Shown: positions 16,010 to 53,322 of the stretch, piece by piece
Layout: each line of letters starts with the position of its first letter
How positions within the stretch are numbered: position 1 is the first letter of the stretch
Origin: Alphaproteobacteria bacterium
Lineage (GTDB): Bacteria; Pseudomonadota; Alphaproteobacteria; Acetobacterales; Acetobacteraceae
Length of the DNA: 54,158 nucleotides
Direction: 5' to 3'
NCBI GenBank assembly: GCA_026400815.1
Contig: JAPLOI010000027.1
Span: 1 to 54,158, forward strand
Translations under genes and position numbers: made by a program
Notes under the pieces: generated by a model
The model's input: the letters and a program-made list of their open reading frames with translations, nothing else
What the model was told of the DNA's origin: nothing
Database searches by the model: none

Positions 16010-16114
16010 GAATGTTCTTTTTTGAAAAAAAGAACCAAAAAACTTTCATGGCCTGGCGTGCGCCAAGTCATGAAGTTTTTTTGCTTCTTTTTGTTCACAA
16101 AAAGAAGACTCTTA
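16010..16114. repeat. AT-rich three-hairpin element, copy 1 (bidirectional terminator)
   Basis: The element lies between two convergent genes. Left hairpin: GTTCTTTTTT / AAAAAAAGAAC. Central stem: CATGGCCTGGCG with CGCCAAGTCATG. Right hairpin: GCTTCTTTTTGT / ACAAAAAGAAG. The right edge CTTA supplies the TAA stop (16112-16114) of the minus-strand glycosyltransferase. The hairpins with flanking T-runs on both strands fit a bidirectional intrinsic terminator. Confidence 0.85.
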
Positions 16115-17404
16115 CTCCTCTTCCCAGGTGATGAGCTTCACCTCGGTCAGCGCGATCGACATCCGCCGGGCATCCTGCGTGTTCGGCACCACGTCGCGGA
16201 TGCGGTGGAATTCCGGCGGTTCCAGCGTGATCTCGTTGCGGCCGCGTTGCAGCGCCATGGGCTCGCTGAGCAGGATGCGCCAGCGTTCGCCCAGCGCGCG
16301 CAGGGAGAAGGCCACCGCCGCCCCGTTCACGCGCAGCGCCATGCGCTCCAGCGGGTAGGGGTCCATGATCATGTAGATGCCCAGCCCCAGCCGGGCCTGC
16401 GGCACCGCGGCCGTGACCACCAGCGTGCCCGCGCCACTGCCGGTGGCGGCATCGCCATCCCTGATCCAGAACAGGTTGGCGGAATCGCGCGGGTAGAACC
16501 CATCCAGCGCCGACACCTCGTCGGGGATCAGAACGCGGTCGGTCGGCGTTACCGCCTCGCCCGGCGCGCCGGGGGCGGTGGCGGCTTCGGCGAAGCGCAT
16601 CCGCGCCTCCACCAGCGCCGCCATCGCGGCCAGCGCGGTATCCTCCTCGGCGTTCACCATCGTGTCGCGGCCGGTGAAGTAATCCTGCGTCAGCCGCTTC
16701 ATGTCCCCGCTGTCGGAGACGGCGCCGCGCTGGCGCTTGCGCTGGTATTCGTTCCAGGATTTCAGGATGTAGTGGTGCAGCACCGGCCCGTGCACGGCCA
16801 CGATGGCCGCCTGCGCCTGGTGGTTGCCGGCCACCTGGCGCTGGCTGCCATCGGTCATGATGTAGCGGCCATCGCGCAGATGCGCGGTGTGGCTGAACTG
16901 GAACGTGGCCACGCATTCCGGCCGCGCGATGGTCTTCACCCAGAAGTGTTCGGGGTAGTCCAGCTTGGCGCGCTTGGTGAAGCGGCGGATCACCAGGTCC
17001 TCGTCATCGATCTCGATCCGGCCGGCGGAGCCGAACACGCGCTGGTTCACGGCAACGGCGCCGACATCATCCTCCAGCCCATCCAGCCAGTTGGGCAGCG
17101 ACCGCCATTGCGGGTCGAACAGGAACTCGTCGGCGTCCAGGAAGGCCACCCAGTCGTAGCGCCCGGTCAGCGCCTGGCAGGCATCGTTGAACGCGGATTG
17201 CTGGCGCTCGATCCCCGTCACCGTCCAGGGCAGCACCTCGATGTCGTAATGCGTCGCCAGCCGCGCCAGCAGCGCCAGGCTGCCATCGGTGCTGCCGTTG
17301 TCGTAGATGCGGAAATGGCTCACGCCCACCAGGGCATGGAAGGCCAGCCATTCCGCGAGGTATGGGCGCTCATCCTTGATCATCAGGCAGATCGCCAGGC
17401 TCAT
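16112..17404 (-). CDS. GT2-like glycosyltransferase with C-terminal extension
   Basis: This 430-aa protein is read from ATG 17404 with AGAGG 12 bases upstream (ATG 17416 is also possible). The N-terminal about 250 residues form a family 2/92-type glycosyltransferase: 'LAICLMIKDERPYLAEWLAFH', 'FRIYDNGSTDGS', then the metal-binding 'WVAFLDADEFLF' (DxD at about residue 93-95) and a conserved 'HHYILKSWNEYQRKRQRG'. The C-terminal about 150 residues are a separate beta-rich domain. No signal peptide or membrane segment is seen. It probably adds a sugar to a cell-surface glycan. It is transcribed towards the tail island, with convergent termination at the three-hairpin repeat. Confidence 0.8.
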   Translation of the reverse strand: MSLAICLMIKDERPYLAEWLAFHALVGVSHFRIYDNGSTDGSLALLARLATHYDIEVLPWTVTGIERQQSAFNDACQALTGRYDWVAFLDADEFLFDPQWRSLPNWLDGLEDDVGAVAVNQRVFGSAGRIEIDDEDLVIRRFTKRAKLDYPEHFWVKTIARPECVATFQFSHTAHLRDGRYIMTDGSQRQVAGNHQAQAAIVAVHGPVLHHYILKSWNEYQRKRQRGAVSDSGDMKRLTQDYFTGRDTMVNAEEDTALAAMAALVEARMRFAEAATAPGAPGEAVTPTDRVLIPDEVSALDGFYPRDSANLFWIRDGDAATGSGAGTLVVTAAVPQARLGLGIYMIMDPYPLERMALRVNGAAVAFSLRALGERWRILLSEPMALQRGRNEITLEPPEFHRIRDVVPNTQDARRMSIALTEVKLITWEEE

Positions 17405-17690
17405 CGGCGCAGACATCCTCTCGCGGCAGGTCTTCAGGCGCGGCACGGCGCCGGGTGAATCCCTACACAACCGCAGCCGGCATTCCTATGCACATGCGAA
17501 GCTTCCACAAAGATTGCCGGCTTTGGTCATGACGCTCACGAAAGTCTGAACGCGGCCAGAAGGCGGCGCCGCCCCGTCCGCGGCAGGGCAGGCGTGCTTG
17601 CGCGCGTGGTGATCCGGCGGGTAAACAAAGGCATCGTCATGCGTGCATGTTAATTTTCAACAGGCGTTCCCCAGCAGGAGATCCGTGCGA

Positions 17691-18257
17691 ATGCCGCGCA
17701 AGCTCGATATCGGACCGGACATGAAGCCCCTGGCGGGGTTCGAGGTGCTGGACGTGATGGGCCCAGGGCGCCCGCACCCCGCCGAGATACTGCGCCGCCT
17801 GCCCTATGAGGATGCCAGCTTCGACCTGATCCACATGGCCCATGTGCTGGAGCACGTGGCCTGGTACCAAACCGGCGAGGCGCTGGCGGAGATGCTGCGC
17901 GTGCTGCGCCCCGGCGGCGTGCTGGAGGTGTGGGTGCCCGATGCGCTGCGCATCGCCGAGGCCTTCGTGAACGCCGAGCGCCGCGGCCACGACCCGCTGA
18001 AGATCGACCCCTGGACGCGCTTCAACCCCGCCGGCGACCCCTGCGTGTGGGCGGCCGGCCGCCTGTTCTCCTATGGCGACGGCACGGGCACGCCCGGCCA
18101 TCCCGGCTGGCACCTGGCCATGTTCTCCCCGCGCCGCCTGCGCGAGGCGCTGTTGCAGGCCGGCTTCGTGGGGGTGCAGGAGTTGCAGTCCGGCCGGGTG
18201 CGGGGCCACAACCACGGCTGGATCAGCCTCGGCGCCACCGGCCGCCGCAAGCCCTAG
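17691..18257 (+). CDS. SAM-dependent methyltransferase (class I, type 11-like)
   Basis: This 188-aa protein starts at ATG 17691 behind AGGAG (17676-17680). It is short and lacks a clear GxGxG motif I, but it has the later half of a type 11 methyltransferase: 'LPYEDASFDLIHMAHVLEHV', 'ALAEMLRVLRPGGVLEVWVPD' and a C-terminal 'FSPRRLREALLQAGF'. Related proteins (SAM-domain, predicted SAM binding) are frequent in LPS/capsule clusters. The next gene starts 11 bases after its stop, so it leads a three-gene strand with the phosphoribosyltransferase-HAD and DUF4214-methyltransferase genes. Confidence 0.72.
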   Translation: MPRKLDIGPDMKPLAGFEVLDVMGPGRPHPAEILRRLPYEDASFDLIHMAHVLEHVAWYQTGEALAEMLRVLRPGGVLEVWVPDALRIAEAFVNAERRGHDPLKIDPWTRFNPAGDPCVWAAGRLFSYGDGTGTPGHPGWHLAMFSPRRLREALLQAGFVGVQELQSGRVRGHNHGWISLGATGRRKP

Positions 18258-18268
18258 GATATCGCGGC

Positions 18269-19246
18269 ATGAGCACGGCCCCCACGCCAGCCGCCACCCC
18301 GGCCATCGACCTGCGGAGCCTCTGGCACCGCACCACCGAAACGGTGCCGCCTCGCCCCGCCCAGGCGCTGAACATGCGCACCGTGGCGGACATGCACACC
18401 ACCATCAAGAAGCACCTGCACCGCGTTTCCGAAGGCTACGACTTCGTGGTGGGCCTGCCGCGCAGCGGCCTGGTGCCCGGCGCGCTGGTGGCGCTGCACC
18501 TCAACCTGCCGCTGGTGACACTCGCGGACCTCGCCACCGGCAAGCTCACCCAGCGCGACACCAACCGCTGGGGCCGCGCCCATCACCGCCTGGCCCGCGC
18601 CGGCGCCGATGCGGTCCTGAACGTGCTGGTGATGGACGACACGATCAACACCGGTGCCGCCATCCGCCGCTTCCGCGCCACCCATGCCGAGACGATCAAC
18701 AGCGGCCGCTACCGCTTCACCTTCGTGGCCATCTACAAGGCCGAGCACGACGCGCCCGATGCCGACCTCACCTTTGAAACCGTGCCGGGCCCGCGCGTGT
18801 TCGAGTGGAACATGATGCACCACTCCATGAGCGACGGCTTCCTCTGCGACCTCGACGGCGTGTTCTGCCCCGACGGCCCGCCGGAAAACTCCAACGATGG
18901 CGGGCTGTACGAAAACTACATCCTCAACGCGCCGCTGAAGCTGCGGCCGAGCTACAAGCTGGGCGCCATCGTCACCTCCCGGCTGGAGAAATGGCGCGGC
19001 CAGACCAGGGAATGGCTCGCCAGGCACGAGATCAACTACGACGAGCTGATCATGCTCGACCTGCCCACCGCCGAACGGCGCCGCCAGTTGCAGCTCTATG
19101 GGCGCTACAAGGCCGATGTGTACGCCGCCATGGGCGGGCGGCTGTTCGTGGAAAGCGATTCCGGCCAGGCGCACCAGATCGCGCAGATCACCGGAAGGCC
19201 GGTGTTTTGCACGGATACGGGGGTGTTCCTGAAAGGGAAGGCGTAG
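18269..19246 (+). CDS. phosphoribosyltransferase-HAD fusion protein
   Basis: This 325-aa protein has two parts. Residues about 55-180 are a type I phosphoribosyltransferase: 'YDFVVGLPRSGLVPGALVA' and the PRPP loop 'VLVMDDTINTGAAI' (DD at 123-124). From about residue 190 comes a HAD-like phosphatase domain with motif I 'CDLDGVFC' (Asp194/Asp196), 'LRPSYKLGAIVTSRLEKWR' around motif II, and a C-terminal 'GGRLFVESDSGQAHQIAQ' resembling motifs III-IV. HAD and PRT domains joined in one chain suggest transfer and dephosphorylation steps on a phosphoribosyl or nucleotide-sugar substrate, but the substrate is unknown. It sits 11 bp behind a methyltransferase. Confidence 0.78.
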   Translation: MSTAPTPAATPAIDLRSLWHRTTETVPPRPAQALNMRTVADMHTTIKKHLHRVSEGYDFVVGLPRSGLVPGALVALHLNLPLVTLADLATGKLTQRDTNRWGRAHHRLARAGADAVLNVLVMDDTINTGAAIRRFRATHAETINSGRYRFTFVAIYKAEHDAPDADLTFETVPGPRVFEWNMMHHSMSDGFLCDLDGVFCPDGPPENSNDGGLYENYILNAPLKLRPSYKLGAIVTSRLEKWRGQTREWLARHEINYDELIMLDLPTAERRRQLQLYGRYKADVYAAMGGRLFVESDSGQAHQIAQITGRPVFCTDTGVFLKGKA

Positions 19247-19311
19247 CCTGCCTCTTTCTTGGAACGTGGTGTAATCAATGCGATGCACGCGGTGCATTCG
19301 GGAGGCATGCC

Positions 19312-20289
19312 TTGCCCATCTCGGCAGACGACATTGCGCTTACCTACCGCTTCATGCTGGGCCGGCAGCCGGGGCCGCAGGAAACGGAGATGTGGCGCGG
19401 CCTGGCGTCGGTGGACGACCTGCGCAAGCAGGTGTTCCAGTCGGCGGAGTTCGGCGCCGTCTTGAAGCGCCACGGGCATGAGGCGCTGAAGGCGGCACCG
19501 CCCGCCCGGCTTTCGTTCAACATCCCGCCGCCGCAGATAGAGTGGGAAGCCGACGGTCCCAGCCAAGCCAGGCTGCTCGACCATGTAACGCGGACCTGGA
19601 CCGCCCTGGGGCGCGAGAAGCCGCACTGGTCGGTGCTGTCGTCGGATCAGTTCCTGCCCGGCAGGATCGAGCAGAACGAGCGCTCCTTCTATGCCTCAGG
19701 GGCAAACGACGCCCAGGGTATCGTCACCGCGTTGCAGCGCCATGGCCGCACGGTGCAGATGCATCCCCGGGTGGTGGAATACGGCTGCGGCGTTGGCCGG
19801 GTCACGCCCCATCTGGCGGGCCATTTCGCCCAGGTGACCGGCATCGACATTTCCGAAAGCCACCTGTCCATGGCGCAGGAAGCCGCCCGCACGGCCGGGG
19901 CGGGGAATGCCGCCTTCCACCTTGCCCGCGCGCCGGAGTTCGGCATGACGGAGCCGTTCGACCTGTGGTTCAGCTACATCGTGCTGCAGCACAACCCGCC
20001 GCCGGTGATCGCCCTGGTGTTGCGCCGCGCCTTCTCCATGCTGGCACCGGGCGGAATCGCGATCTTCCAGGTGCCAACGCATGCCGTGGACTATCGCTTC
20101 AACCTCGCCCGCTACCTCGCCAATCCAACCAGTACCGGCACGATCGAGGTACATTGCCTGCCGCAATCCGTGATCTTCCGCCTTGCCGCCGAGGCTGGCT
20201 GCGTGCCGCTGGAGGTGCGGGAAAACCTGGCCATGGGGCCACCCTCGCACTGGCTCTCCAACATGTTCGTCTTCGCAAAGGCACGCTGA
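19312..20289 (+). CDS. DUF4214-type N-terminal domain fused to SAM methyltransferase
   Basis: The 325-aa reading starts at TTG 19312, six bases behind GGAGG (19301-19305). No in-frame ATG precedes the conserved start. Residues about 5-50 ('ALTYRFMLGRQPGPQETEMWRG', then 'LRKQVFQSAEF') are a DUF4214/phycobilisome-linker-like motif, often found in proteins of glycan clusters. From about residue 120 comes a class I methyltransferase with motif I 'VVEYGCGVGRVTPHLAGHF', then 'VTGIDISESHLSMAQ' and 'FDLWFSYIVLQHNPPP', and motif III-like 'LAPGGIAIFQVP'. It is probably a glycan- or lipid-modifying methyltransferase in the cytoplasm. Confidence 0.75.
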   Translation: MPISADDIALTYRFMLGRQPGPQETEMWRGLASVDDLRKQVFQSAEFGAVLKRHGHEALKAAPPARLSFNIPPPQIEWEADGPSQARLLDHVTRTWTALGREKPHWSVLSSDQFLPGRIEQNERSFYASGANDAQGIVTALQRHGRTVQMHPRVVEYGCGVGRVTPHLAGHFAQVTGIDISESHLSMAQEAARTAGAGNAAFHLARAPEFGMTEPFDLWFSYIVLQHNPPPVIALVLRRAFSMLAPGGIAIFQVPTHAVDYRFNLARYLANPTSTGTIEVHCLPQSVIFRLAAEAGCVPLEVRENLAMGPPSHWLSNMFVFAKAR

Positions 20290-20319
20290 GGCGGGTCTTG
20301 CGGCCATTGCCGGGGGGGG

Positions 20320-21528
20320 TCAATCCGCTCCACACCCCGCCACCACCGGCTCCTGCGCCGGCGTGCCGCGCCGGCACAGCGTGAGCCCCGGCGCGGGCTT
20401 GCCGCCTTCGAACCCGTTGCCCGCCAGCCGGTTGCCGCGCACCTCCACCGCCACGCCCGCCACCCGCACCACGCCGCCGGAGCGCGAGACGTGGTTGTCC
20501 TGCAACTCGTTGCCTTCCACCACCACCCGCGCCGGCAGCCGGTCTTCGCCGCCTTCCGATGGCTGGTACGGCCCCACCGCCAGGGCCGGGTAGCCGCGCA
20601 TCCCGGCCACGCGGTTGTGGCGCACCATCACCAGGTCGGCATCGCCCGCCCGCACCAGGATGCCCGCGGTGTGCGCCCCGGGCTGCGGGGCGGCGATGTC
20701 GTTGTCCTCCAGCGTGATCGTGCCGGCGATCCGCCCGCCGCCGCGCCCCAGCGGGCTGACCCAGATGCCCACCCCGTTGGCGCCCTGCCCGCGCACGATG
20801 TTGCGCCGGGCGGTGAAGCCGCGCGACGTGGCCGGCGCGTTGCCGGTATCCACCGCGTTGAACAGGATGCCGTGGCCGTTGGCCAGGAAGGCGATGTTGT
20901 CCTCCACCACCGCGTCCTCGGTGCCGAACCAGTGGTCCCAGGCGGCGTTGCGCGTGCCGTGCGATAGGTTGTGCGCCACGCGCGTGCGCCGCCCGCCCAG
21001 CATGGCGGTGGCATCCATGCCCCCTTCGAACTCGCAGCCCTCCACAGACACGTCATCCACCCGGCGCAGCATCACGCCCATGGTCTCGTGGCGGATGCGG
21101 ATGGCGCGCACATGGATGTCGCGGTCCCGCACGGTGGAGGACAGCCAGTTGGCGTTCATCACCGTGCCCATGGACAGCAGGCCGACCTTGCCGAACACGT
21201 GGTCCTGCTCCAGCGTGGCCAGTGGCCGCCCCTGCGCCGATTGCGGCCCCTGCAGGCTCACGCCCGAAGGCAGCAGCACCGGCTTGGACAGGCGATAGGT
21301 GCCGGCCTGCAGCATCAGCGTCTGGCCGGGCTTCAGCCCCTGCAGCACCGTGTTGATCGCCTCGGCCACGTCTGCCCCGGTATCCGGCCGCACCCCGTGC
21401 GCCTCCAGCCGCACCGCGCCGGCGGGCACGGGGAAGATCGGCGGCCGCCACTCCGGCACACCCTGGGCCTGCGCGGCGGCACCCGCGGTCCACAGGACCA
21501 GCAGCAGCAGCAGGAAAAAGCGGGCCAT
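20320..21528 (-). CDS. secreted right-handed beta-helix protein
   Basis: This 402-aa protein has a signal peptide ('MARFFLLLLLVLWTAGAAAQAQG', cleavage likely after AxA). It continues with a pectate-lyase-like entry ('ADVAEAINTVLQGLKPGQTLML', 'AGTYRLSKPVLLPSGVSLQG') and repeated beta-helix coils such as 'VSVEGCEFEGGMDATAML' and 'TARRNIVRGQGANGVGIWV'. Four cysteines lie near the C-terminus and at coil positions. The fold matches polysaccharide lyases and epimerases, but active residues cannot be assigned. Its start lies 6 bases after the stop of the methyltransferase upstream on this strand (21534), so the two are probably one operon. A vestige of the same gene pair lies at 23121-23347. Confidence 0.72.
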   Translation of the reverse strand: MARFFLLLLLVLWTAGAAAQAQGVPEWRPPIFPVPAGAVRLEAHGVRPDTGADVAEAINTVLQGLKPGQTLMLQAGTYRLSKPVLLPSGVSLQGPQSAQGRPLATLEQDHVFGKVGLLSMGTVMNANWLSSTVRDRDIHVRAIRIRHETMGVMLRRVDDVSVEGCEFEGGMDATAMLGGRRTRVAHNLSHGTRNAAWDHWFGTEDAVVEDNIAFLANGHGILFNAVDTGNAPATSRGFTARRNIVRGQGANGVGIWVSPLGRGGGRIAGTITLEDNDIAAPQPGAHTAGILVRAGDADLVMVRHNRVAGMRGYPALAVGPYQPSEGGEDRLPARVVVEGNELQDNHVSRSGGVVRVAGVAVEVRGNRLAGNGFEGGKPAPGLTLCRRGTPAQEPVVAGCGAD

Positions 21529-21533
21529 GGCGA

Positions 21534-22226
21534 TCACCCCTTGCGTTGCAGCACGGCCATCTTGGGGGCCCAGTAGTTCACGCCGCCCTTGTCACTGCGG
21601 TGGATGAACACCTGGGCCGTGTTCGCCTCGATGAACCGTGCCTGTTCCGGCGAAATCGCCGCACTCTCCAGCTTACCGGTGCGCAGGAACTGCTCCAGCA
21701 GGGAAATTGTGCGCGGCACCTTCGGCAGGTCGGCATCCATCGGGTTGAACACGTGGATATCCTCGATCACGAAGAACCCGCCGGGCGCCACGCGGTTGAA
21801 CAGATGCGCCAGGGTCAGTTGCTGATGGTAGCTGGCGTGGCTGCCATCGTCGATCAGCAGGCGTAGCGGCGGCAGGGCGTCGTGCAGCTTCGTGAGCGAC
21901 TGGGCGCTGCCGGCATCGCCCTGGATGAAGGTGAAGCCCTCCATCTTCACCGCCGAGAAATCGGAGATGTCGAAGCCCCAGATCTTCGCGCGCGGGAAGT
22001 ATTTCCGCCACATGGCGATGGAGGGCGCCTCCTGCTCCACCCGGCCGCGCAGCTTGGATTCATCCAGCCCCCCGCGCTTCAGCCCGATCTCCAGCATGGC
22101 GAACTCGCGCTCGCGGAACTGCTCGAACAGGAAGGCATAGAGCCGCGCATAATCGTGCGCGTGGAACACGGCATCGCCCTTGTCGCTGCCGGCTTCGTTG
22201 GCGAGTTGGGCCAGGTTCAGGGACAT
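21534..22226 (-). CDS. SAM-dependent methyltransferase of the class with short GSDKG start
   Basis: This 230-aa protein has GGAGA before its ATG at 22226. It shows 'LANEAGSDKGDAVFHAHDYARLY', 'FAMLEIGLKRGG' (motif I), 'SIAMWRKYFPRAKIWGFDISD', 'LRLLIDDGSHASYHQQLTLAHLF' and 'VAPGGFFVIEDIH'. This order is typical of the methyltransferases found in polysaccharide and macrolide clusters (the E-x-G-x-x-x-G then D-D-G-S-H pattern; cf. MycE-like enzymes). The C-terminal residues 'HRSDKGGVNYWAPKMAVLQRKG' repeat the SDKG stretch of the N-terminus. A relic copy uses this identity as its deletion junction. Confidence 0.8.
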   Translation of the reverse strand: MSLNLAQLANEAGSDKGDAVFHAHDYARLYAFLFEQFREREFAMLEIGLKRGGLDESKLRGRVEQEAPSIAMWRKYFPRAKIWGFDISDFSAVKMEGFTFIQGDAGSAQSLTKLHDALPPLRLLIDDGSHASYHQQLTLAHLFNRVAPGGFFVIEDIHVFNPMDADLPKVPRTISLLEQFLRTGKLESAAISPEQARFIEANTAQVFIHRSDKGGVNYWAPKMAVLQRKG

Positions 22227-22468
22227 GGCGGCTGGCTCTCCATGGCAAACAGGGTTCTCTCGCCACACGCGAAGGTCTGCCGTCAATCCAGCCTATTGGC
22301 AAATTTGTGTGCGAAGGGTGGTTCCTGCAGTTTTTTCATCTTTCGGCAACCGCCGCCTCGCCGGCCGCCATGGTCCCGCGCACCGTCTTCGATGCGCAAT
22401 GTGGGGAGGCGATGCGTGGTGCGGGCGGGGCCACGTGGCATCCCACCCTGCGCGCAGGCTCGTTGGCT
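22227..22468. other. intergenic region, divided by methyltransferase upstream sequence
   Basis: This 242-bp gap separates the two methyltransferase genes on the minus strand. The part at 22227-22290 resembles the sequence upstream of the relic at 23348-23410 (both carry CACGCG followed by a CCGTCAAT stretch), so it is probably the promoter/leader of the methyltransferase-beta-helix pair. I see no gene or strong terminator in the rest. Confidence 0.4.
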
Positions 22469-23041
22469 TCAATCGGCAACGAAGGCGTATCCCCTGATCA
22501 TGTGCCGCACCTGGTTCTGGTCGTAGTCGGGGCGGCGCAGGAACAAGGTCAGGTAGCCGGCCTGGGCGACCGGGCGCATGAACGGGGCCACGACGTGGTA
22601 ATGGGTGCGGTTATCGTAGTCGTGGAACGCGATCAGCGCGTTTGACCGGGCGTGCAGCAGGATCTGCAGGCAGCAGGCGACGCGGAAGCGGCCATCGACC
22701 AGGAAGAGATCGGCGTTCGCCGCCATCGGCTTGTCCCAGATCCCGGTATGGTAGCTGGGCCACCGCGTGCGCGTGGTGGGATCGAGCGGGAAACCCCAGT
22801 TGCCTGTCGGCCCGATGTCGACGAACAACATCTGTGGTTGCACCCATCCCGGCTGGGCCGCGCATGTTTGCGTTACCTTCTCGACCCAGGTGAGGGAGGA
22901 ATCCACCGAGAGGATCGAGCCCTTGACCCGCGCCGCCGCTTCGCAGTTGCTGCCGCCGGAGCCGAACTCCAGGAAATTCTCTGAACAGGAAAGCGTATTC
23001 TCGAAGAGCCTGCGCTCGGGGGCGGTCATCGATGGCTGCAT
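22469..23041 (-). CDS. SAM-methyltransferase-like protein, 190 aa
   Basis: The sequence shows a glycine-rich motif I 'NFLEFGSGGSNCEAAARV', 'GSILSVDSSLTWVEKV', then 'LFVDIGPTGNWGFPLDP', 'ANADLFLVDGRFRVACCLQILLHA' and 'LIAFHDYDNR'. This arrangement (E-F-G-S-G-G-S, S-V-D-S, V-D-G-R-F-R) is seen in a family of short Rossmann proteins encoded near sulfotransferase and glycosyltransferase genes. They are annotated as methyltransferases or hypothetical. GGAG lies 11 bases before ATG 23041; ATG 23029 is an alternative. Its exact substrate is unknown. It lies between the intact methyltransferase and the relic copy. Confidence 0.65.
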   Translation of the reverse strand: MQPSMTAPERRLFENTLSCSENFLEFGSGGSNCEAAARVKGSILSVDSSLTWVEKVTQTCAAQPGWVQPQMLFVDIGPTGNWGFPLDPTTRTRWPSYHTGIWDKPMAANADLFLVDGRFRVACCLQILLHARSNALIAFHDYDNRTHYHVVAPFMRPVAQAGYLTLFLRRPDYDQNQVRHMIRGYAFVAD

Positions 23042-23120
23042 GGGATCAGCGGCTCCTTGGAGGCGAACGGGCCTTAGCAGCTATAACCCGTGGGTGTGCA
23101 CAATACGTCCATGGCGGCTT

Positions 23121-23240
23121 TCAGTGGAAATCCCGTGAGGCCGGCATCGCCGGTTGTCCGCCCTCCAGCAGCCCCGGCAGCACGGTTCGGTCCGCCAGCC
23201 CGGCCCACAGGGCCAGCAGCAGCAGGACCAGGCGGCGCAT
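23121..23240 (-). pseudogene. relic of a secreted beta-helix gene (signal peptide only)
   Basis: A 39-aa reading begins with a signal-like stretch 'MRRLVLLLLALWAGLA', paralleling the signal peptide of the beta-helix gene at 21528, and then ends in 'SRDFH' and TGA. The last five residues and about 19 surrounding bases match the C-terminus of DnaE2 at 23417 (17 of 19 bases). It looks like the start of a beta-helix gene fused by deletion to a duplicated dnaE2 end. Confidence 0.6.
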
Positions 23241-23245
23241 TTGCC

Positions 23246-23347
23246 TCAGCCCTTGCGCTGCAGCACCGCCATCCTCGGCGCATAATCGTTCACCCCACCC
23301 TTGTCGCTGCCGGCTTCGTTGGCAATCTGGGCCAGGTTCAGGGACAC
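23246..23347 (-). pseudogene. internally deleted copy of the GSDKG methyltransferase
   Basis: A 33-codon reading from GTG 23347 gives VSLNLAQIANEAGSDKG joined directly to GVNDYAPRMAVLQRKG and stop. The first half equals the N-terminus and the second half the C-terminus of the intact methyltransferase at 21534-22226. About 198 residues between the two SDKG stretches are missing and the frame is kept. It is followed 6 bp downstream by the signal-peptide relic, the same order as the intact pair. Confidence 0.75.
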
Positions 23348-23416
23348 GATGGCGCGCTTTCAATGGGCAATGAAAGCTGATCTCTGCACGCGATGGCGTG
23401 CCGTCAATCGAATGTG

Positions 23417-26400
23417 TCAGTGAAAATCCCGCGAGCGGGGAAGGGAGAGGGCATTTTCCTCCTCCGCCGGCGGCGTCCGGTTCGCCTCATCGGCCGGCGC
23501 GGGCGCGATCCGCAGCCCCTCCCCCTCCAGCAGCCCCAGCAGGGCGGTGCGGTCGGTCAGCGCATCGGCCACCACGTGCACCACGCCTTCCTCGGAGCGT
23601 TGCACCTTCCCCGCCACCTCCAGCACCTGGCTGCCCAGCACGGCGCGGCGGAAGCGCTCCATCACCGAGGGCCAGATCACGATATTCGCCACCCCGGTCT
23701 CGTCCTCGATGGTGGCGAACACCACACCAGAGGCACTGCCCGGCCGCTGGCGCACCAGCACCACGCCCGCCACCCGCACCTTCGCCCCGTCGCGGCGCGA
23801 GGTCGCCTCGGCGCAGGTCGCCACCCCCTCGGCGGCCAGCACGCGGCGCAGCAGCCGCACGGGATGGGCGCGCAGGGACAGGCCCGTGGCCTGGTAATCC
23901 GCCGCCACGTGCTCGCCCTGGCGCATCGCCGGCAGTGCCGCGTTGCCCGGCGGCGGATCGAGCATCGCCAGCAGCGGCGGTGCTTCATTCTCCAGGCCGC
24001 GCACCCGCCACAGCCCCTGCCGCCGGTCCAGCCCCAGCCCGCGCAGGGCATCGGCTTCGGCCAGCATCACCAGCGCCGCCCGCGGCAGCCCGATGCGCGT
24101 GAGGGCCGCGAAATCCGCAACCGGCCGTCCCGCTTCCTTTCGCCAGGCCACGATCCGCCGCGCCCAGTCCTCGCGGAACCCGTCGATCAACCGGAAGCCG
24201 AGCCGCAGCGCCACATCCCGGCCCGCCGCCTCCACATCGCAGTCCCAGGCGGAGACCAGCACATCGATCCCGCGCACCTGCACGCCATGCTCGCGCGCAT
24301 CGCGCACGATCTGCGCCGGGGCATAGAACCCCATCGGCTGGCTGTTCAGCAGCGCGCAGGCAAACGCCGCGGGGTGGTGGCATTTCAGCCAGGCCGAGAC
24401 GTACACCAGCTGCGCGAAACTGGCCGCGTGGCTTTCGGGAAACCCATACGTCCCGAACCCCTCGATCTGCCGGAAGCAGCGCTCGGCGAAATCCCGCTCG
24501 TAGCCGCGCGCCGCCATGCCATCCACCATCTTGCCGAAGAAGGTGTTGATCGTGCCCACGTGCCGGAACGTCGCCATCGCCCGGCGCAGCGCGTTGGCCT
24601 CCTCCGGCGTGAACTTCGCCGCCTCGATGGCAATGCGCATCGCTTGTTCCTGGAACAGCGGCACCCCCAGCGTCTTGCCCAGCACCCGCTCCAGCTCGTC
24701 CGGCGCCCCGTGCGCGGGATCGGGCGAGGGGAAGTGCACCGCCTCCTTGCCCTGCCGCCTTCGCAGATACGGGTGCACCATGTCGCCCTGGATCGGCCCC
24801 GGCCGCACAATGGCAACCTCGATGACGAGATCGTAGAACTTCGCGGGCCGCAGCCGCGGCAGCATGTTCATCTGCGCCCGGCTTTCCACCTGGAACACGC
24901 CCACGGAATCGCCGCGGCACAGCATCCGATACGTCGCCGCATCCTCGCGCGGCACGTCGGCCAGGTCGGTGATCGGAAACCCCCGCGCCCGCAGCAACGC
25001 AAACGCCTTGCGGATGCAGGTGAGCATGCCGAGCGCCAGCACATCCACCTTCATGATCCCCAGCGTGTCGATATCGTCCTTGTCCCATTCGATGAAATAC
25101 CGGTCGTCCATCGCCGCCGGCCCGATCGGCACCGTCTCGATCAACGGCCCGCGCGTCAGCACGAACCCGCCGACATGCTGGGAGAGATGGCGCGGAAACC
25201 CGATCAGCTCGCGCGCCAATTGCAGCGTGCGGGCAAGCGCCATGCTCTCCCCATCCAGCCCCACCTCGGCCAGCCGTTCCGGCGACCACAACTCCCCCGC
25301 GCCCGATCGGCTGCCCCAGCTCTGGCTCGACAGGATGCCAGTGGTATCCTCCGACAACCCCATCACCCGGCCGACCTCGCGGATCGCCATCTTCGGCCGG
25401 TAATGGATCACGGTGGCCGCAATCGCTGCCCTGTCATGCCCGTAGCGGGCATAGAGATACTGGATCACCTCCTCGCGCCGCTCATGCTCGAAATCCACGT
25501 CGATATCCGGCGGCTCCCGCCGCTCCGCCGAGACAAACCGTTCGAACAGCAGATCGATTTCCGTGGGATCCACTGCGGTGATCCCCAGCGCGAAGCACAC
25601 GGCGGAATTCGCCGCCGAGCCACGCCCCTGGCACAAAATCCCCCGTGCCCGCGCGAACACCACGATGTCGTGCACCGTGAGAAAATACCGCGCGTAGCTC
25701 AGCCGCGCGATCATCGCCAGCTCCTTGGCAATCGTCGCGCGCACCTTGTCCGGCACGCCGCGGGGATAGCGCTGCGCCGCCCCCTCCCAGGTCAGCACCG
25801 CCAGATGCTCATCCGCCGTGCGCCCCGGCGGCACCGGCTCGTCGGGGTATTCATAGGAAAGCTGGTCCAGCGAGAATTCCACCTGCGAGGCAATCTCCAG
25901 GCTCGCCGCCACCGCCTCCGGATAGGCCCGGAACAGCCGCGCCGTTTCCGCCGCCGGCTTCAAATGCCGCTCCGCATGCGGCGCCAGGGCCAGCCCCGCC
26001 TTCTCGATCGTGGTGCCCAGCCGGATGCAGGTCATCACATCGGCCAGCATCTTGCGCGCCGGGTGGTGGAACAGCACGTCGTTGGTGGCCACCAGGGGCA
26101 TGCGCACCAGCCGCCCCATCTCCGCCAATGCCGCCAGCCGGCGCCCATCCTCCGCCGAATGATCCCGCCGCGCCGCCAGCCAGATGCGCCGCCCGAACAC
26201 CTCCCGCAGCCCATGCAACGCCGCCGCCTCGCCCCCCATGGCGATCCCCACCAGCCCCTCCGCATGCGCCGCGAGATCGGCCCGCGTCAGCACGCACGCC
26301 CCCTTCTTCGCCCGCCGCTTGCCCAAGGTGAGCAACGTCGTCAGCCGCCCCCAGGCCGCGCGATCCGTGGGATACACCACCACCTCCGGCGTGCCGTCCA

Positions 26401-28899: not shown

Positions 28900-28907
28900 G
28901 AGAACAT

Positions 28908-42767: not shown

Positions 42768-42900
42768 GAAGAATGTTCTTTTTTGAAAAAAAGAACCAAA
42801 AAACTTTCATTCGTTTGCGCCTCGGTCTCTCCCGATAGAACGAGGCACAAACAAACAAAAGTCTTTTTGCTTCTTTTTCTTCAGAAAAAGAAGAGTCTTA
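42768..42900. repeat. AT-rich three-hairpin element, copy 5
   Basis: The element lies between the convergent Calx-beta gene (stop at 42764) and the peptide-binding protein gene (stop TTA at 42902-42904). It has the GTTCTTTTTT / AAAAAAAGAAC hairpin, a central stem GTTTGCGCCTCG with CGAGGCACAAAC, and the GCTTCTTTTTCTT / AAGAAAAAGAAG hairpin. The stem sequence differs from copies 1-4 but remains paired. Confidence 0.85.
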
Positions 42901-42901: not shown

Positions 42902-44527
42902 TTAGCTTCGTATCGTCGCAAAATTCCGTCCCTGGAAATCCATCACAAAGCTGCGCGCCGGCTTCCACTGCACGTCGCGGCGCTTGGCGGTGAAGTTGGC
43001 GGTTTCGTGCAGGATCAGCAGGGCGGGGTCCTCGTGCTCGATGATGTCGAGCATGCGACCGAAGGCGCTGCGGCGGGCGGCCATGTCGGTGCTGCCTTCC
43101 AGCGTGGGCATCAGGCGCTGCACCTCTGCGTTGCTGTAGTAGCCGAGGCGCGCCAGGTCGCCGTCGCGGCCGAAGCTGGAGGGGAAGAAACTGACGGGGT
43201 CGTTGAAGAAGGCGCTCATGGAGTTGTCGTTCAGCGCGCGGCCGGCGGGCTCCTGCACCTGGCTCCAGTTCTCCTTCAGCTGCATGTCCACGTTGAGGCC
43301 GACGGCTTTCCACATCTCGACCGCGATCTGCGCGGTGGCAAGCTGGTTGGTGTAGTAGTTCGGCATCAGGCGGTAGGGGATCGGCTCACCGCGATAGCCG
43401 GCCTCGCGCAGCAGGCGGCGGGCTTCGGCGGCATCGAAGCGCGGGGGCGCGCGGTCGGCCAGGAACATCGGGCCGTAGAACGGGTATTGGATGCCCTGCG
43501 GGATGCGGGTGCGCCCGCCCCACAGCGTATCGACGATCATCTGGCGATCGAGCGCCAGGCTCATGGCGCGGCGCACGCGCGGGTCGCGCAGGGCTGGGAA
43601 GCTGGTGTCGAAGTTCAGGCAGCGCATGTTGGTGATCAGCCCGCCGGCCACCTCGAAGCGCGGGTTGCGCTCGATGGCAGGGATCTGGTCGGGCGTCACG
43701 TCGCAGGCGAAGTCGAACTCGCCGGCGAACAGGCCGTTGATGCGGCTGGCGAGTTCCGGCACCTCGATGAAGCGCAGCTGGCGGATGGGCGGGCGGCCGC
43801 CCCAGTAGTCGTCATGGGCTTCCAGCACCAGGCGGGATTCGGCGCGGTATTCGGCCACCCGGTAGGGGCCGGTGCCGACTGGCTTGCGGGCCCATTCGAA
43901 CCAGCTCGGCGCTTCCCGGTGGGCGCGGGCGTTGACGATGCAGCCGGCGCGCATGGAAATCCGGCCCAGCAGCGTCACGTCCGGGGCCTTCAGCGTGATG
44001 CGCACGGTGCGGGCATCGACGGGGGTGACCTGCTCGATCCCGGCATACATGGTGCGCGCGCCGGCACGCACCTTGGCCGGTGCCCATTTCGGGTCGCGCG
44101 TGGCGCCGGCGGGGGCGGTGCGTTCGGCCTCGGTGCCGAACAGGCGTTCGGTGAAGGTGAACACCACGTCGTCCACGCTCAGCAGGTCGCCGTTGTGGTG
44201 GCGCACGCCGGGGCGCAGCGTGAACTCGATGCTGCGGTCATCCACCATGCGCCAGGATTCGGCGAGGCCGGGGCGCAGGGAGAGGTCGCCGGTCCAGTCG
44301 GTGTCGATCAGCGGTTCCTTGTAGGCGGTGTAGTGCCGTGTGCCGACATTGCTGGCCTCGTTCAGGATGCACAGCGTGTTGGAAGTGGCGATGCGCTGCA
44401 CGGCCACGGTGACGGTGGGGCGCTGGTCGGCCTGGGCGATGGCGAAGCGGGGCAGGCCCCCGGTCAGCGAGACGGCGGGCAGGGCGGCGGCGGCGGCAAT
44501 GGCAGCGCGGCGGGAGAGGGGGGGCAT
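42902..44527 (-). CDS. ABC transporter substrate-binding protein, family 5 (peptide/nickel type)
   Basis: This 541-aa protein has a Tat-like N-terminus ('PPLSRRAAIAAAAALPAVSL', twin-Arg) followed by the SBP_bac_5 fold: 'LRPGLAESWRMVDDRSIEFTLRPGVRHHNGDLLSVDDVVFTF', 'KPVGTGPYRVAEYRAESRLVLEAHDDYW' and 'RDPRVRRAMSLALDRQMIVDTLW'. It is a periplasmic binding protein, probably for oligopeptides. No permease or ATPase genes are next to it, so it is an orphan in this window. It converges on the Calx-beta gene via copy 5 of the repeat. Confidence 0.85.
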   Translation of the reverse strand: MPPLSRRAAIAAAAALPAVSLTGGLPRFAIAQADQRPTVTVAVQRIATSNTLCILNEASNVGTRHYTAYKEPLIDTDWTGDLSLRPGLAESWRMVDDRSIEFTLRPGVRHHNGDLLSVDDVVFTFTERLFGTEAERTAPAGATRDPKWAPAKVRAGARTMYAGIEQVTPVDARTVRITLKAPDVTLLGRISMRAGCIVNARAHREAPSWFEWARKPVGTGPYRVAEYRAESRLVLEAHDDYWGGRPPIRQLRFIEVPELASRINGLFAGEFDFACDVTPDQIPAIERNPRFEVAGGLITNMRCLNFDTSFPALRDPRVRRAMSLALDRQMIVDTLWGGRTRIPQGIQYPFYGPMFLADRAPPRFDAAEARRLLREAGYRGEPIPYRLMPNYYTNQLATAQIAVEMWKAVGLNVDMQLKENWSQVQEPAGRALNDNSMSAFFNDPVSFFPSSFGRDGDLARLGYYSNAEVQRLMPTLEGSTDMAARRSAFGRMLDIIEHEDPALLILHETANFTAKRRDVQWKPARSFVMDFQGRNFATIRS

Positions 44528-46840: not shown

Positions 46841-48757
46841 ATGACCAGCACCATCGGCCCGGTTCCGGGCCCCGAGAGCAACAGCGCGTCATCACCGCCG
46901 CCCGAGAAGGGTGTGGCGGTGATCGAACGCGCGCTGGAAACCATGCCGCTGTCGCCCGGCGTCTACCGCATGCTCGCGGCCAACGGCGATGCCCTTTATG
47001 TAGGCAAGGCGCGCTCGCTGAAGAAACGCGTCACCAGCTACAGCCAACTCGCCCGCCTGCCGGAGCGCCTGCGCCGCATGGTGAACGAGACGGTCTCGAT
47101 GGAGATCGTCACCACCCATACCGAGGCCGAGGCGCTGCTGCTGGAGGCCAACCTCATCAAGCGGCTCAAGCCGCGCTTCAACATCGTCCTGCGCGACGAC
47201 AAATCCTACCCCTGGCTGATGCTCACGGAAGACCACCCGTATCCGCAGATCGCCAAGCACCGCGGCGCGCGCACCCGCAAGGGCAGCTACTACGGCCCCT
47301 TCGCCTCCGCCTGGTCGGTGAACCAGACCGTAACGGCGATGCAGCGCGTGTTCCTGCTGCGCTCCTGCCGGGACACGGTGTTCCGCAACCGCACCCGGCC
47401 GTGCCTGCTGCACCAGATCAAGCGCTGCTCCGCCCCCTGCGTGGAGCGCATCAGCACCGAGGACTACGGCGCGCTGGTGGACCAGGCGAAGGCGTTCCTC
47501 TCCGGCCGCGCCGGCGGCGTGCAGCAGGCGCTGGCGGCCGAGATGGAGCAGGCAGCGGAGGCGCTGGAGTTCGAACGCGCCGCGGCGGTGCGGGACCGCA
47601 TCCGCGCGCTGACCAGCGTACAGGGCACGGATGTGATCAACCCGGCCAGCCTCGCCGATGCCGACGTGATCGCCGCCTGGCAGATCGCCGGGCAGACCTG
47701 CATCCAGGTGTTTTTCGTGCGCGGCGGGCGCAACAACGGCAACCGCGCCTTCTTTCCCACCCACACCAAGGGCGAGGACCGGCCGGAGGTGCTGGCCGCC
47801 TTCATCGCCCAGTTCTACGACGACAAGCCGCCCCCGCCGGTGATTCTGCTGAACGAGGCCCTGGCCGAGCAGGCGCTGGTGGCGGAGGCGCTCGGCATTA
47901 AGGCGAACAGCTTCGGCTCCGGCAAGCGCGTGGAGATCGCCGTGCCCCAGCGCGGCGAGAAGGCCGCCGTGGTCGCCCATGCCGAGACCAATGCGCGCGA
48001 GGCACTGGAACGCAAGCTCGCCGAGACCGCCGGCCAGGCCAAGCTGCTGGAGGCCACCGCCACCCTGTTCAGCCTGGACGGCCCGCCCGACCGCATCGAG
48101 ATCTACGACAACTCCCACATCATGGGCAGCAACGCCTATGGCGTGATGGTCGTCGCGGGGGCGGAGGGGTTCCGCAAGCAGGCCTACCGCAAGTTCTCGA
48201 TCAAATCCGCCCTCACCCCCGGCGACGACTTCGCCATGATGCGCGAGGTGCTCACCCGCCGCTTCGCCCGCGCGCTGAAAGAGGAGGAAGCCGGCGAGGA
48301 AACCGAATGGCCCGACCTCGTGCTGATCGATGGCGGGCTGGGCCAGCTCACCGCCGCCCAGGCGATCCTGGACGAGCTGGGCATCGAGGACGTGCTGCTG
48401 GTCGCCATCAGCAAGGGGCCGGATCGCGACGCCGGCCGCGAATGGTTCCACCGCACCGGCCACCCGCCCTTCCAGCTGCCGCCGCGCGACCCCGTGCTGT
48501 ATTTCCTGCAGCGCCTGCGCGACGAGGCGCATCGCTTCGCCATCACCACCCATCGGGCCGGGCGGTCCAAGGCGCTGGTGACCAGCGAGCTGGACGAAAT
48601 CCCCGGCATCGGCCCCGGCCGCAAGCGCGCCCTGCTGAACCATTTCGGCTCGGCGCGCGGCGTGAAGCAGGCCGGGTTGGCAGACCTGGAGGCGACGCCG
48701 GGGGTGTCGAAGGCGATCGCGAAGCTGGTCTACGCGCATTTCCATCCCAGCGCGTGA
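46841..48757 (+). CDS. uvrC: excinuclease ABC subunit C
   Basis: This 638-aa protein has an N-terminal GIY-YIG nuclease ('[30 protein letters not shown]'), the Cys-rich motif '[20 protein letters not shown]', a UvrB-binding UVR segment ('[24 protein letters not shown]'), the RNase-H-like nuclease ('[20 protein letters not shown]', '[16 protein letters not shown]'), and a C-terminal helix-hairpin-helix ('[21 protein letters not shown]'). It makes the 3' and 5' incisions in nucleotide excision repair. The first 25 residues are variable; the ATG at 46841 is chosen. A large inverted repeat follows. Confidence 0.95.
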
Positions 48758-48758: not shown

Positions 48759-48945
48759 GAAGGAAGAAAGCGAAGGGGTCACAGAGAGCACAGAGGGCCA
48801 CAGAGAGCCACAGAGAGCACGGAGAGGCCGTTGGCCGTCGTGGCGCCCCAGCCTCAGGCCACCCCTGGCTGATGATCCCCTGAAGCCCTTTCTTCTCTGT
48901 GCTCTCCGTGGCCCTCTGTGCCCTCTGTGACCGCTTCGCTTCCCC
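48759..48945. repeat. large CACAGAG-type inverted repeat after uvrC
   Basis: Two arms of about 60 bases, at 48759-48826 and roughly 48885-48955, are built of CACAGAG-type 8-9-bp units (e.g. CACAGAGAGCACAGAGGGCC on the left). They are complementary on the right, with a loop of about 70 bases. The outer ends also match (GAAGGAAGAAAGCG with CGCTTCCCCTTCCTTC-type sequence). It starts right after the uvrC stop and could form one long hairpin acting as a terminator. Confidence 0.75.
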
Positions 48946-52809: not shown

Positions 52810-52914
52810 CCACCCTCCCCTCCGTTTCGCTGAACGGTGCCTTGCGTCCATGCGGATTGGAGCGACGGCGGAATTGCGCTATGCCGCGTTCCCCACATTC
52901 ATGAGCAGAACCTG

Positions 52915-53280
52915 ATGGCCTTCAAGGGCGACAACTTCAAGGACCGCGCGACCGCCGCTGCCGAGGCCCGCAAGAAGCTGGCCGAGAAATTCAAGGCCAT
53001 GCCGAAGCCGGACGATCCGCGAATCCAGCAGCTGGCCGCCGAGCGCAAGGCCATCGCCGAAGCGCGCGAGGCCCGCATGGCCGAACGTGCCATCGCCAAG
53101 GCCGAGGAAGAAGCCCGCAAGGCCGAGGAAGCCAAGCTGCGCGCGGTCGAGGAAGCCCGTGCCGCGGAGGAAGCGCGCAAGCGCGCCATCGAGGAACGCG
53201 CCAAGCAGCTGCAGATCGCTGCCGAGCAGAAGGCAGCCCGTGACGCTCGTTACGCGGCGCGCAAGGCGAGGAAGAAGTAA
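52915..53280 (+). CDS. lysine/alanine-rich coiled-coil protein, DUF6481-type
   Basis: The 121-aa product starts at ATG 52915. It is nearly all charged helix: 'MAFKGDNFKDRATAAAEARKKLAEKF', then long A/E/K/R repeats ('AKAEEEARKAEEAKLRAVEE') ending in 'ARYAARKARKK'. This matches the DUF6481-type proteins often found near cold-shock genes in alphaproteobacteria. The role is unknown; the basic C-terminus suggests nucleic-acid or ribosome contact. The TAA stop is also the edge of the half-length copy of the three-hairpin repeat. Confidence 0.7.
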   Translation: MAFKGDNFKDRATAAAEARKKLAEKFKAMPKPDDPRIQQLAAERKAIAEAREARMAERAIAKAEEEARKAEEAKLRAVEEARAAEEARKRAIEERAKQLQIAAEQKAARDARYAARKARKK

Positions 53281-53322
53281 GAGTCTTCTTTTTCTGAAGA
53301 AAAGAAGAAAAAATACTTTTAT
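53278..53322. repeat. half copy of the AT-rich three-hairpin element, copy 6
   Basis: Only one hairpin (TCTTCTTTTTCTG with the AAGAAAAGAAG arm) and the start of the central stem are present. The TAA of the preceding gene is part of the left edge (TAAGAGTCTTC). The second hairpin is missing; an IS3-family element begins within the next 250 bp and may account for the loss. Confidence 0.65.

Follow-up and report, generated by a model that had tools for sequence, protein, structure and literature searches.

The window analyzed here, a stretch of 54,158 nucleotides of Acetobacteraceae DNA, carries an A/T-rich palindromic repeat at the ends of several genes, which raises the question of whether such a repeat is a mobile unit, a signal for ending transcription, or both. 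In the original prediction, it was viewed as a MITE- or REP-like unit turned bidirectional terminator. The dispersal of the family, the existence of empty sites, the pairing of the central stem, the terminator layout, and the location at gene 3' ends all agree with this proposal, but neither the REP tag nor a cognate Y1 transposase was found. The repeat is probably a dispersing palindrome that has been inserted repeatedly behind stop codons and acts as a putative bidirectional intrinsic terminator.

Copies in the window and their anatomy

Inspection of the sequence, together with a repeat finder that returned both direct and inverted families, placed all six copies at the coordinates originally given, as follows.

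16010 to 16114, - strand (L to R on the - strand): full copy 1, between convergent genes 14534-16006 (+) and 16112-17404 (-)
26612 to 26714, + strand: full copy 2, between tandem - strand genes, 3' of 26715-28223 and 5' of 23417-26590
26616 to 26639, + strand: L hairpin of copy 2, CTTCTTTTTC TGAA GAAAAAGAAG, read from the sequence
26640 to 26689, + strand: central stem of copy 2 (A-tract, palindromic middle, and T-tract), with the layout of an intrinsic terminator on both strands
26689 to 26710, + strand: R hairpin of copy 2, read from the sequence
30577 to 30711, + strand: full copy 3, between tandem + strand genes 30386-30571 and 30750-32774, with a 60-nt middle
32776 to 32897, - strand: full copy 4, between convergent genes 30750-32774 (+) and 32895-34430 (-)
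42768 to 42900, - strand: full copy 5, between convergent genes 40797-42764 (+) and 42902-44527 (-)
53278 to 53322, + strand: half copy (L arm only), directly behind gene 52915-53280 (+)

Rfam gave no matches in the window at the gathering score. In every full copy, a central stem lies between two outer A/T hairpins, and the four central stems quoted in the prediction are present exactly as written. The outer hairpins, described there as nearly identical, are so between copies within each of two types, L (CTTCTTTTTCTGAAGAAAAAGAAG) and R (GTTCTTTTTTGAAAAAAAGAAC), but the two hairpins of one copy differ in type. Similarly, the claim that the edges lie 0 to 8 bp from stop codons holds for edges facing gene 3' ends but not for two full-copy edges that, by codon-usage gene calls, face gene starts, namely, 26612 (start codon at 26590) and 30711 (start at 30750). 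In three copies, as predicted, the TAA stop codon of the adjacent gene is part of the element edge: 16112-16114 in copy 1 (gene 16112-17404, - strand), 32895-32897 in copy 4 (gene 32895-34430, - strand), and 53278-53280 in the half copy (gene 52915-53280, + strand).

The repeat as a whole is a noncoding palindrome with a core of ∼110 bp and an AAGNAAG flank of ∼10 bp on each side; the outer flank consensus, AAGNAAGNNN, is common to both arms. The arms, each ∼35 nt long, are A/T-rich hairpins, with L and R inverted relative to each other and flanking a variable palindromic middle. One L and one R were found in 80 of the 81 full copies read in the genome that contains the window (hereafter, own copies). 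At orthologous sites, the arms are 98.4% identical (1313/1334) and the middles 85.6% identical (763/891), with four-fold sites (84.6%, 8669/10249) serving as the comparison value. The locked arms would be what a mobilizing or binding protein recognizes; homogenization between copies is another possible cause. The middle would need self-complementarity only, which could be kept by selection for an RNA hairpin, by repair of the palindrome through template switching, or by the two together.

Spread, gene context, and site occupancy

The family is dispersed far beyond the window, as expected from the prediction: a 25-base pattern of the left half, with up to 3 mismatches, has 245 matches in the 5.11-Mb genome and none when the pattern is reversed. 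Seven other congeners drawn for comparison carry 203 to 509 matches each, and matches were detected in 78 of 299 Acetobacteraceae genomes (this one included), representing 32 of 102 genera. A stricter pattern gave no matches in 140 sampled genomes from other families of the class; among the genomes sampled, the repeat is restricted to Acetobacteraceae. Copies are also present between phage structural genes and on plasmids; of two annotated places on plasmids of Pseudoroseomonas cervicalis, one fills a convergent gap and the other follows a stop codon. Among the literature matches listed (in part the best 10 to 15), no title or beginning of an abstract describes the repeat.

Elements were identified by a profile search, in which halves were paired only if inverted and within 250 bp; it replaced a regular-expression search that had yielded 38 pairs plus 31 solo halves, including a few double calls. 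Gene context was taken from a codon-usage gene caller trained on the fetched stretches (89% coverage), used in place of a GC3 caller with 77% coverage that put 4 elements inside genes. None of the 81 own full copies and none of the 27 lone halves is located inside a called gene. The full copies occupy 48 tandem, 31 convergent, and 2 divergent gaps, compared to 328, 85, and 144, respectively, among background gaps of at least 60 bp, so that divergent gaps are avoided (2/81, P = 2.6e-8). Divergent exceptions are also few in the congener G033 (1 of 30) and at other congener loci (2 of 38 full copies, with overlapping sites), while the 25 full copies with context in other genera include 13 convergent, 12 tandem, and no divergent ones. 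Facing stop codons fall within -3 to 20 bp of the copy in 95 of 110 cases (median, 8), which, together with the scarcity of divergent copies, bears out the proposed location at gene 3' ends. TAA accounts for 62 of the 95 stop codons beside copies, compared to 127 of 1017 elsewhere, and the element flank can read AAGTAAG, which contains TAA. A copy is found within ∼40 nt of 129 of the 1107 gene ends in the stretches read, some of which were chosen for holding copies and in which lone halves were padded by 45 bp.

It is highly improbable that these elements are paired DNA uptake signals doubling as terminators. In Neisseria and Haemophilus, inverted pairs of conserved uptake signals do form terminator hairpins, but their length is described as 9 to 11 nt and their number as generally at least 1000 per genome (PMC1852404), compared to arms of ∼35 nt and a few hundred copies per genome here. 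Besides, the arms are of two distinct types, mostly one L with one R, and no own full copy or lone half was found inside a called gene. This reading was rejected on arm length, number, and pairing.

Orthologous loci without the copy exist, as the prediction implied: of 36 rows that compare an own full copy with a congener, 13 are without the copy in the congener, and in 8 of them the gap spans no more than 30 bp. Because relatives have no copy at many of the same sites, the repeat seems to spread. The converse reading, that of immobile ancestral terminators inherited vertically and lost at different sites in each lineage, appears quite unlikely. It fits the close relatives G171, G212, G244, and G297, which keep at least one half in 20 of 23 rows (all four are occupied at the site of copy 4), as well as the partial deletions visible at window:16014 (in G171) and at L118:15056 (in G244 and G171). 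However, the distant congeners differ in both directions: only 3 of 13 own rows are present in G033, G119, and G274, and only 2 of 10 full copies of G033 are present in the own genome. Several empty sites are tight gene junctions, which also counts against an ancestral set, as do plasmid-borne copies and those amid phage structural genes.

In some cases (L118:3880 and L118:16338), a copy separates two genes that in relatives have overlapping or nearly overlapping stop and start codons. A possible short target duplication was seen at L118:3880 only, the flanks at empty sites being strongly diverged. A search of the fetched stretches for an autonomous parent with the same ends gave a single pair of lone halves facing each other at a distance below 6 kb; they are 787 bp apart. 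No mover was found among Y1 transposases, the one transposase family searched: five of the seven other congeners (G033, G119, G171, G212, and G274), the three richest in copies among them, lack a Y1 match at an E value of 0.001. RAYT was rejected as the mover; the only Y1_Tnp match in the genome has a different GTAG repeat on its flanks.

Terminator layout and pairing of the central stem

Both strands of the copies contain an A-tract, a stem, and a U-tract. When the tail is read from a fixed position downstream of the stem, its score is -2.5 or lower on each strand in 80 of 80 own copies, in line with the predicted layout of an intrinsic terminator on both strands. Intergenic A/T runs of at least 6 number 316 within copies (with lone halves padded by 45 bp) and 58 elsewhere, and no T-tract excess is seen at gene ends without a copy (T5 in 22 and A5 in 19 of 972). 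A generic terminator scan of positions 15001 to 34000, whose loop and G-C limits suit these stems badly, gave 6 sites compared to 10.2 (standard deviation, 3.7) in shuffled sequences, i.e., no excess; from the four full copies in that range, it listed the central stem of one (copy 2, + strand) and a side hairpin of another.

RNA polymerase coming from either side would form the central hairpin, pause on the U-tract, and stop, so that a single copy would end both convergent genes or, between tandem genes, the upstream one. Termination by the copies is predicted here from sequence; the copies between tight gene pairs count against it, because a strong terminator should be polar there. An alternative, which we consider unlikely, is that of a REP-like mRNA element whose hairpins shield the upstream mRNA against 3' exonucleases or delay translation at the stop codon without ending transcription, as stop-proximal REPs of Escherichia coli are reported to do. 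Copies inside operons would then be harmless, and 48 of the 81 copies are indeed found between tandem genes, some of them at gene junctions that overlap in relatives. The placement near stops fits the REPs within 15 to 20 nt of a stop codon, a class said to affect translation (PMC12306157), and the termini of GTAG REPs often supply the stop codons of flanking ORFs (PMC3733652). However, 80 of 80 copies have a U-tract behind the stem on each strand, whereas the REPs counted in PMC12306157 are the palindromes that remained after removal of the U-tailed ones; the arms also provide the A-tract/T-tract symmetry of bidirectional terminators.

The claim that both sides of the stem change together stands in a register-free comparison between copies but not in fixed-register columns or in RNAalifold. 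The two middle halves of one copy pair at -18.1 kcal/mol compared to -12.9 kcal/mol for chimeric combinations of halves from different copies (n = 43, those of the 45 own copies known then that had middles long enough; 0 of 2000 permutations). The signal is weaker in other genera (23 copies, 3 of 2000 permutations), and the congener chimera set (29) has sites in common with the own set, from which it is not independent. Stem register and length vary from copy to copy: a fixed-register column test of 40 copies gave 7.03 paired positions versus 6.95, a value reached by 361 of 1000 shuffles, and shows no signal because the register of the left side shifts by one or two bases. RNAalifold, applied to a MAFFT alignment of 33 own copies, recovered the two outer hairpins only, with a covariation term of -0.08.

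Pairing could be maintained by mutation rather than selection, through template switching that copies one arm of the stem onto the other, with blocks changing on both sides; we regard this as quite possible, a little short of an even chance. Among gap-free orthologous middles, no pair had changes at both of its positions, and 19 of the 33 single changes abolished a pair. Template switching may therefore be what maintains the stems, as no stepwise compensatory change was seen. Block differences separate some diverged orthologues, each of which is still self-complementary (the window copy at 32782 in G297 and G212; L118:16338 in G212), and the mechanism has been published for RNA genes (PMC8794818). 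On the other hand, paired sites differ less than unpaired ones (33/468 versus 34/149), a new insertion that replaces the entire copy would leave the same picture, and the own partner beats that of the orthologue in only 9 of 15 diverged pairs, a weak result. A sense-strand wobble excess in own tandem copies (G-T to A-C, 60 to 32; controls, 41:51 and 28:29) also speaks against template switching and points to RNA-level constraint or transcription. The wobble test covered 75 of the 81 own full copies (44 tandem and 31 convergent, leaving out divergent, L/L, and short-middle copies), and a test by element gave P = 0.017. The bias is absent in G033 (13:13), and C-to-T changes linked to transcription of the sense strand could cause it without selection. 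The covariation is not clearly due to selection on RNA.

A more far-reaching scenario, which we offer tentatively as somewhat unlikely in its entirety, is that of a selfish terminator: a mobile repeat that spreads by inserting behind stop codons, equips the gene with a new stop codon and a two-way transcription stop, and supplies a GC-rich genome with nearly all of its recognizable U-tract terminators. Its arms would be locked by a putative mobilizing protein and its middle rewritten by template switching at a nearly neutral rate, with pairing kept. If the copies do end transcription, part of a bacterial family would have handed transcript ending over to a dispersing repeat. The hundreds of paralogous and orthologous stems, with the locked arms as an internal control, offer a test bed for compensatory selection versus template switching. 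In annotation, copies mark gene ends in the Acetobacteraceae that carry them, and some real stop codons sit in the repeat edge.

Comparison with known systems

The GTAG- and CGTC-tagged, RAYT-linked REP/BIME sequences share with this repeat the hundreds of intergenic palindromes near stop codons (here, 245 matches, with none of the 81 own full copies inside genes), the inverted pairs, and the repeat edge that supplies a stop codon. In contrast to them, the arms here have no GTAG or CGTC tag and are A/T-rich, ∼35 nt long, and of two fixed types around a variable middle; there are U-tracts on both strands, and no linked Y1 transposase was found.

Like MITEs, the repeat is short, has terminal inverted repeats, is absent at some orthologous sites and present at others, and in some cases sits at overlapping stop and start codons. 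Unlike in MITEs, its arms are themselves hairpins; no parent transposase was found within the Y1 family and the fetched stretches, and no clear target duplication at the empty sites, whose flanks are strongly diverged. MIRU is a small insertion that resembles the repeat in being short, in its inverted ends, and in its overlapping stop/start sites; integron attC sites were considered by analogy only.

The terminators formed by Neisseria DUS and Haemophilus USS also consist of an inverted pair of a conserved genomic repeat behind genes, but the arms here are longer, of two types, less numerous, and absent from called genes. Bidirectional intrinsic (Rho-independent) terminators share the A-tract, stem, and T-tract on both strands as well as the location at gene 3' ends, and the tail scores of the copies pass a TransTermHP-type threshold. 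What sets the repeat apart from ordinary terminators of this kind is that hundreds of copies across genera share the same locked arms and that its occupancy varies between congeners.

Anatomy and spread of an A/T-rich repeat

The window, with 69.8% G+C over its 54,158 bases, carries five full copies and one half copy of an A/T-rich hairpin repeat; reading of the sequence and a repeat finder place them at the coordinates of the original prediction. In L-to-R order, the parts of a full copy are as follows:

flank AAGNAAGNNN
hairpin L (CTTCTTTTTC TGAA GAAAAAGAAG)
CAAAAAGACTT
variable middle
AAGTTTTTTG
hairpin R (GTTCTTTTTTTCAAAAAAGAAC)
flank NNNCTTNCTT

The flank has the form AAG-N-AAG, and the core of the full copies of the source genome (GCA_026400815.1) has a median length of 111 bp (range, 76 to 150). 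The L and R arms also complement one another, and as a result the predicted folds are of two alternating kinds: a single long hairpin, given by the window copies at 16010 and 32776 on both strands, and a form with three hairpins, given by the 42768 copy on its L-to-R strand and by the 30577 copy on its R-to-L strand. In 45 copies of the source genome, both strands fold better than dinucleotide shuffles (mean z, -5.0 and -4.5).

The repeat is real, patchily spread in one bacterial family, and not confined to the window: a 25-base left-half pattern, allowing up to 3 mismatches, has 245 matches (123 + 122) in the 5.11-Mb source genome, with none for a control made of the same letters backwards. 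The pattern occurs at least once in 78 of 299 genomes sampled from the family, source genome among them, in 32 of 102 genera; in the other congeners drawn, seven in all, counts run from 203 to 509, with 509, 368, and 421 in the distant congeners G033, G119, and G274, respectively. The order sample consisted of this family alone (47 of 200 genomes with matches) and mostly overlaps the family sample. In the class sample of 142 genomes, a stricter pattern matched the source genome only; 140 of the remaining genomes belong to other families and one to this family. A plasmid blastn search (72,556 records) with one window copy returned two records, both from Pseudoroseomonas cervicalis. No description of the repeat was found in the literature searched, among the matches listed.

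A profile search, which pairs halves solely in inverted orientation, detected 81 full copies and 27 lone halves in 61 stretches (1.244 Mb, window included) of the source genome, some tiled along contigs and others picked for holding copies, so that densities are biased upward. All but one of these full copies join L to R (80 of 81; the other is L/L). In 20 stretches (0.4 Mb) of G033, there were 31 full copies (24 L/R, 6 L/L, and 1 R/R) and 14 lone halves. L/L copies of G033 with a GTGAAC loop (L163:8215-8363, L201:17488-17644, and L202:16655-16807) raise the prospect that arm types may recombine or replace one another. One other genus has same-orientation copy pairs ∼0.9 kb apart, perhaps flanking one gene (G153:C18:2209011/2209972, G096:C49:7413/8290, and G288:C1:722463/723425).

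Of 28 stretches fetched from a virus collection, eight were inspected, and four (L242, L239, L243, and L260) have copies between phage structural genes (tail sheath, major head, portal, terminase, and baseplate). Two copies in L242, at 5536 and 11090, have middles identical over the part read and the same spacing as those at 71661-77215 of G037:C7. Phages are a possible route of spread; another of the eight stretches, L262 (32% G+C), appears to match by chance.

Position at gene ends and terminator layout

Gene context, taken from a codon-usage gene caller, was distributed as follows.

Gaps holding copies of the repeat
Source genome, full copies (81): 48 tandem, 31 convergent, 2 divergent
Source genome, lone halves (27): 15 tandem, 11 convergent, 1 divergent
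Background, gaps of at least 60 bp, copy-bearing ones included: 328 tandem, 85 convergent, 144 divergent
G033, full copies: 19 tandem, 10 convergent, 1 divergent, 1 contig edge
Congener loci, full copies, at sites overlapping those of the source genome: 23 tandem, 13 convergent, 2 divergent, 2 edge
Other genera, full copies with context (25): 12 tandem, 13 convergent, 0 divergent
Other genera, lone halves (12): 5 tandem, 5 convergent, 2 divergent

In the source genome, full copies are depleted from divergent gaps (binomial P = 2.6e-8) and enriched in convergent ones (P = 4.0e-7). In the stretches read, 95 of the 110 stops facing a full copy lie at -3 to 20 bp from the core (median, 8), as do 12 of the 52 facing starts (median, 30.5); lone halves sit more loosely (17 of 37 facing stops within 20 bp). 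Two independently annotated P. cervicalis plasmids agree with this 3'-end placement: in L265, a copy fills the gap between convergent coding sequences ending at 2497 and 2628, and in L266, a copy starts five bases past a stop.

The 95 genes ending within 20 bp of a full copy use TAA 62, TAG 20, and TGA 13 times, compared to 127, 260, and 630 times, respectively, in the 1,017 other genes; their terminal residue is Lys in 16 of 95 cases versus 47 of 1,017. The AAG-N-AAG flank with N = T reads AAG TAA, that is, Lys-stop, and the stop can differ between occupied and empty sites (TAA versus TGA or TAG at L100:4302; TAA in G033 versus TAG in the source genome at L196:11384), so the repeat itself seems to supply the adjoining stop codon. 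Selection favoring TAA next to a terminator would be another possible cause.

By the tail score set out in PMC12306157 (threshold, -2.5), computed at a constant position past the stem, all 80 source-genome copies scored clear the threshold on both strands (means, -5.3 and -4.2). Copies, with lone halves padded by 45 bp, hold 316 A/T runs of at least six in the stretches read, other intergenic DNA 58, and genes 15. The 972 gene ends with no copy within 80 nt display no U-tract signature (T5 run in 22, A5 run in 19), and looser terminator-like calls there number 110, with 101 when this DNA is read on its other strand. As evidence against, a generic terminator scan of 15001-34000 gave no excess (6 sites versus 10.2 in shuffles); its limits (loop of 3 to 8, at least 3 G-C pairs, up to 20 pairs counted) fit the repeat's stems poorly, and from the four full copies there it listed one central stem and a side hairpin of another copy.

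Conserved arms and pairing middles

In 20 orthologous pairs from 9 copies of the source genome, the arms are identical at 1,313 of 1,334 sites and the middles, gaps left out, at 763 of 891, compared to 8,669 of 10,249 four-fold degenerate sites of neighboring genes. Arm sequence, but not the middle, is thus held well beyond the four-fold rate, through constraint on each copy or homogenization.

The proposal that pairing rather than sequence is conserved in the central stem holds in a register-free comparison: in 43 copies, the real halves of the middle pair at a mean of -18.1 kcal/mol versus -12.9 kcal/mol in between-copy chimeras, a value matched by 0 of 2,000 permutations on either strand (3 of 2,000 for 23 copies from other genera). 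Fixed-register tests of the central stem, however, detected no between-copy signal. In gap-free orthologous middles, 201 pairs are unchanged, one-sided changes kept 14 pairs and broke 19, and two-sided changes are absent; differences fall at 33 of 468 paired positions versus 34 of 149 unpaired ones. Some diverged orthologs differ blockwise on both sides. The pattern fits template switching, which PMC8794818 proposes for RNA genes, acting together with constraint.

Sense-strand mismatches of tandem copies in the source genome are more often G-T than A-C (60 versus 32, P = 0.0046); when these copies are instead read from L to R, the counts are 41 to 51, and for convergent copies they are 28 to 29. 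The counts are 21 to 12 in congener copies (at sites common to the source set), 9 to 5 in other genera, and 13 to 13, with no bias, in G033. Sign-flipped per element, the bias has P values of 0.017 (44 source-genome copies) and 0.023 (66 copies once G033 and other genera are added). Two causes would fit, namely, selection acting on the hairpin once transcribed or changes of cytosines in the sense strand where a region is transcribed; either would imply that transcription enters the copy.

Dispersal and relation to known repeat families

Orthologous occupancy was scored in 36 element-by-genome rows in which the flanks aligned on either side, presence meaning at least one detected half. Full copies of the source genome are present in 20 of 23 rows for the close relatives G171, G212, G244, and G297 and in 3 of 13 for the distant G033, G119, and G274; loci lacking the repeat, a check proposed along with the original prediction, thus make up 13 of the 36 rows. 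In the reverse comparison, the source stretches have a counterpart for 18 of 18 full copies from the close relatives, for 1 of 2 from G119, and for 2 of 10 from G033. In 8 of the 13 empty rows, the gap between the aligned flanks is at most 30 bp, the others holding other sequence or remnants, such as a 48-bp hairpin remnant in G171 at the site of window position 16014. At L118:3880 and L118:16338, a copy stands where stop and start codons of some relatives overlap or nearly so. No clear target duplication was readable at the empty sites compared; the flanks at L118:3880, where the empty-site eight-base GGGTCTCC borders the copy on one side and a diverged form of it does so opposite, would fit a short one. 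In the stretches read, only one pair of facing lone halves lies within 6 kb (787 bp apart).

Several other repeats were seen. The window has an inverted repeat with 41-nt arms and a CACAGAGAGCACAGAG motif at 48768-48941, behind the gene at 46841-48757, at a site where G119 has the terminator-like repeat described here (L141:13464-13544). It also has two clusters of a G+C-rich palindromic repeat of CCAGGGCAGAGCCCTGG type (3797-3994 and 10696-10888), with similar sequence behind a gene in G033 (L163). The CGTCATTGCGAGCGAAGCGAAGCAATCC-like palindromes near lone halves in L102, L116, and L118 look like CGTC-tagged REPs, repeats that PMC3733652 reports absent from Acetobacteraceae.

The sole Y1 transposase match of the source genome has GTAG-CCCGCATCTTGATGCGGG repeats on its flanks, which belong to a different family, and was rejected as the mover. 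This lone RAYT-like transposase, in L139 (G000:C53:15978-16313 plus flanks), lies between GTAG-CCCGCATCTTGATGCGGGC palindromes, a second, classical REP family of this genome. Y1 matches number one each in G244 and G297 and none in G033, G119, G274, G171, and G212. Of the MITE- or REP-like unit turned bidirectional terminator that was originally envisaged, REP identity was rejected by the tests made; dispersal and the layout and position of a terminator stand. The repeat is a predicted bidirectional intrinsic terminator that dispersal would have placed at gene ends.
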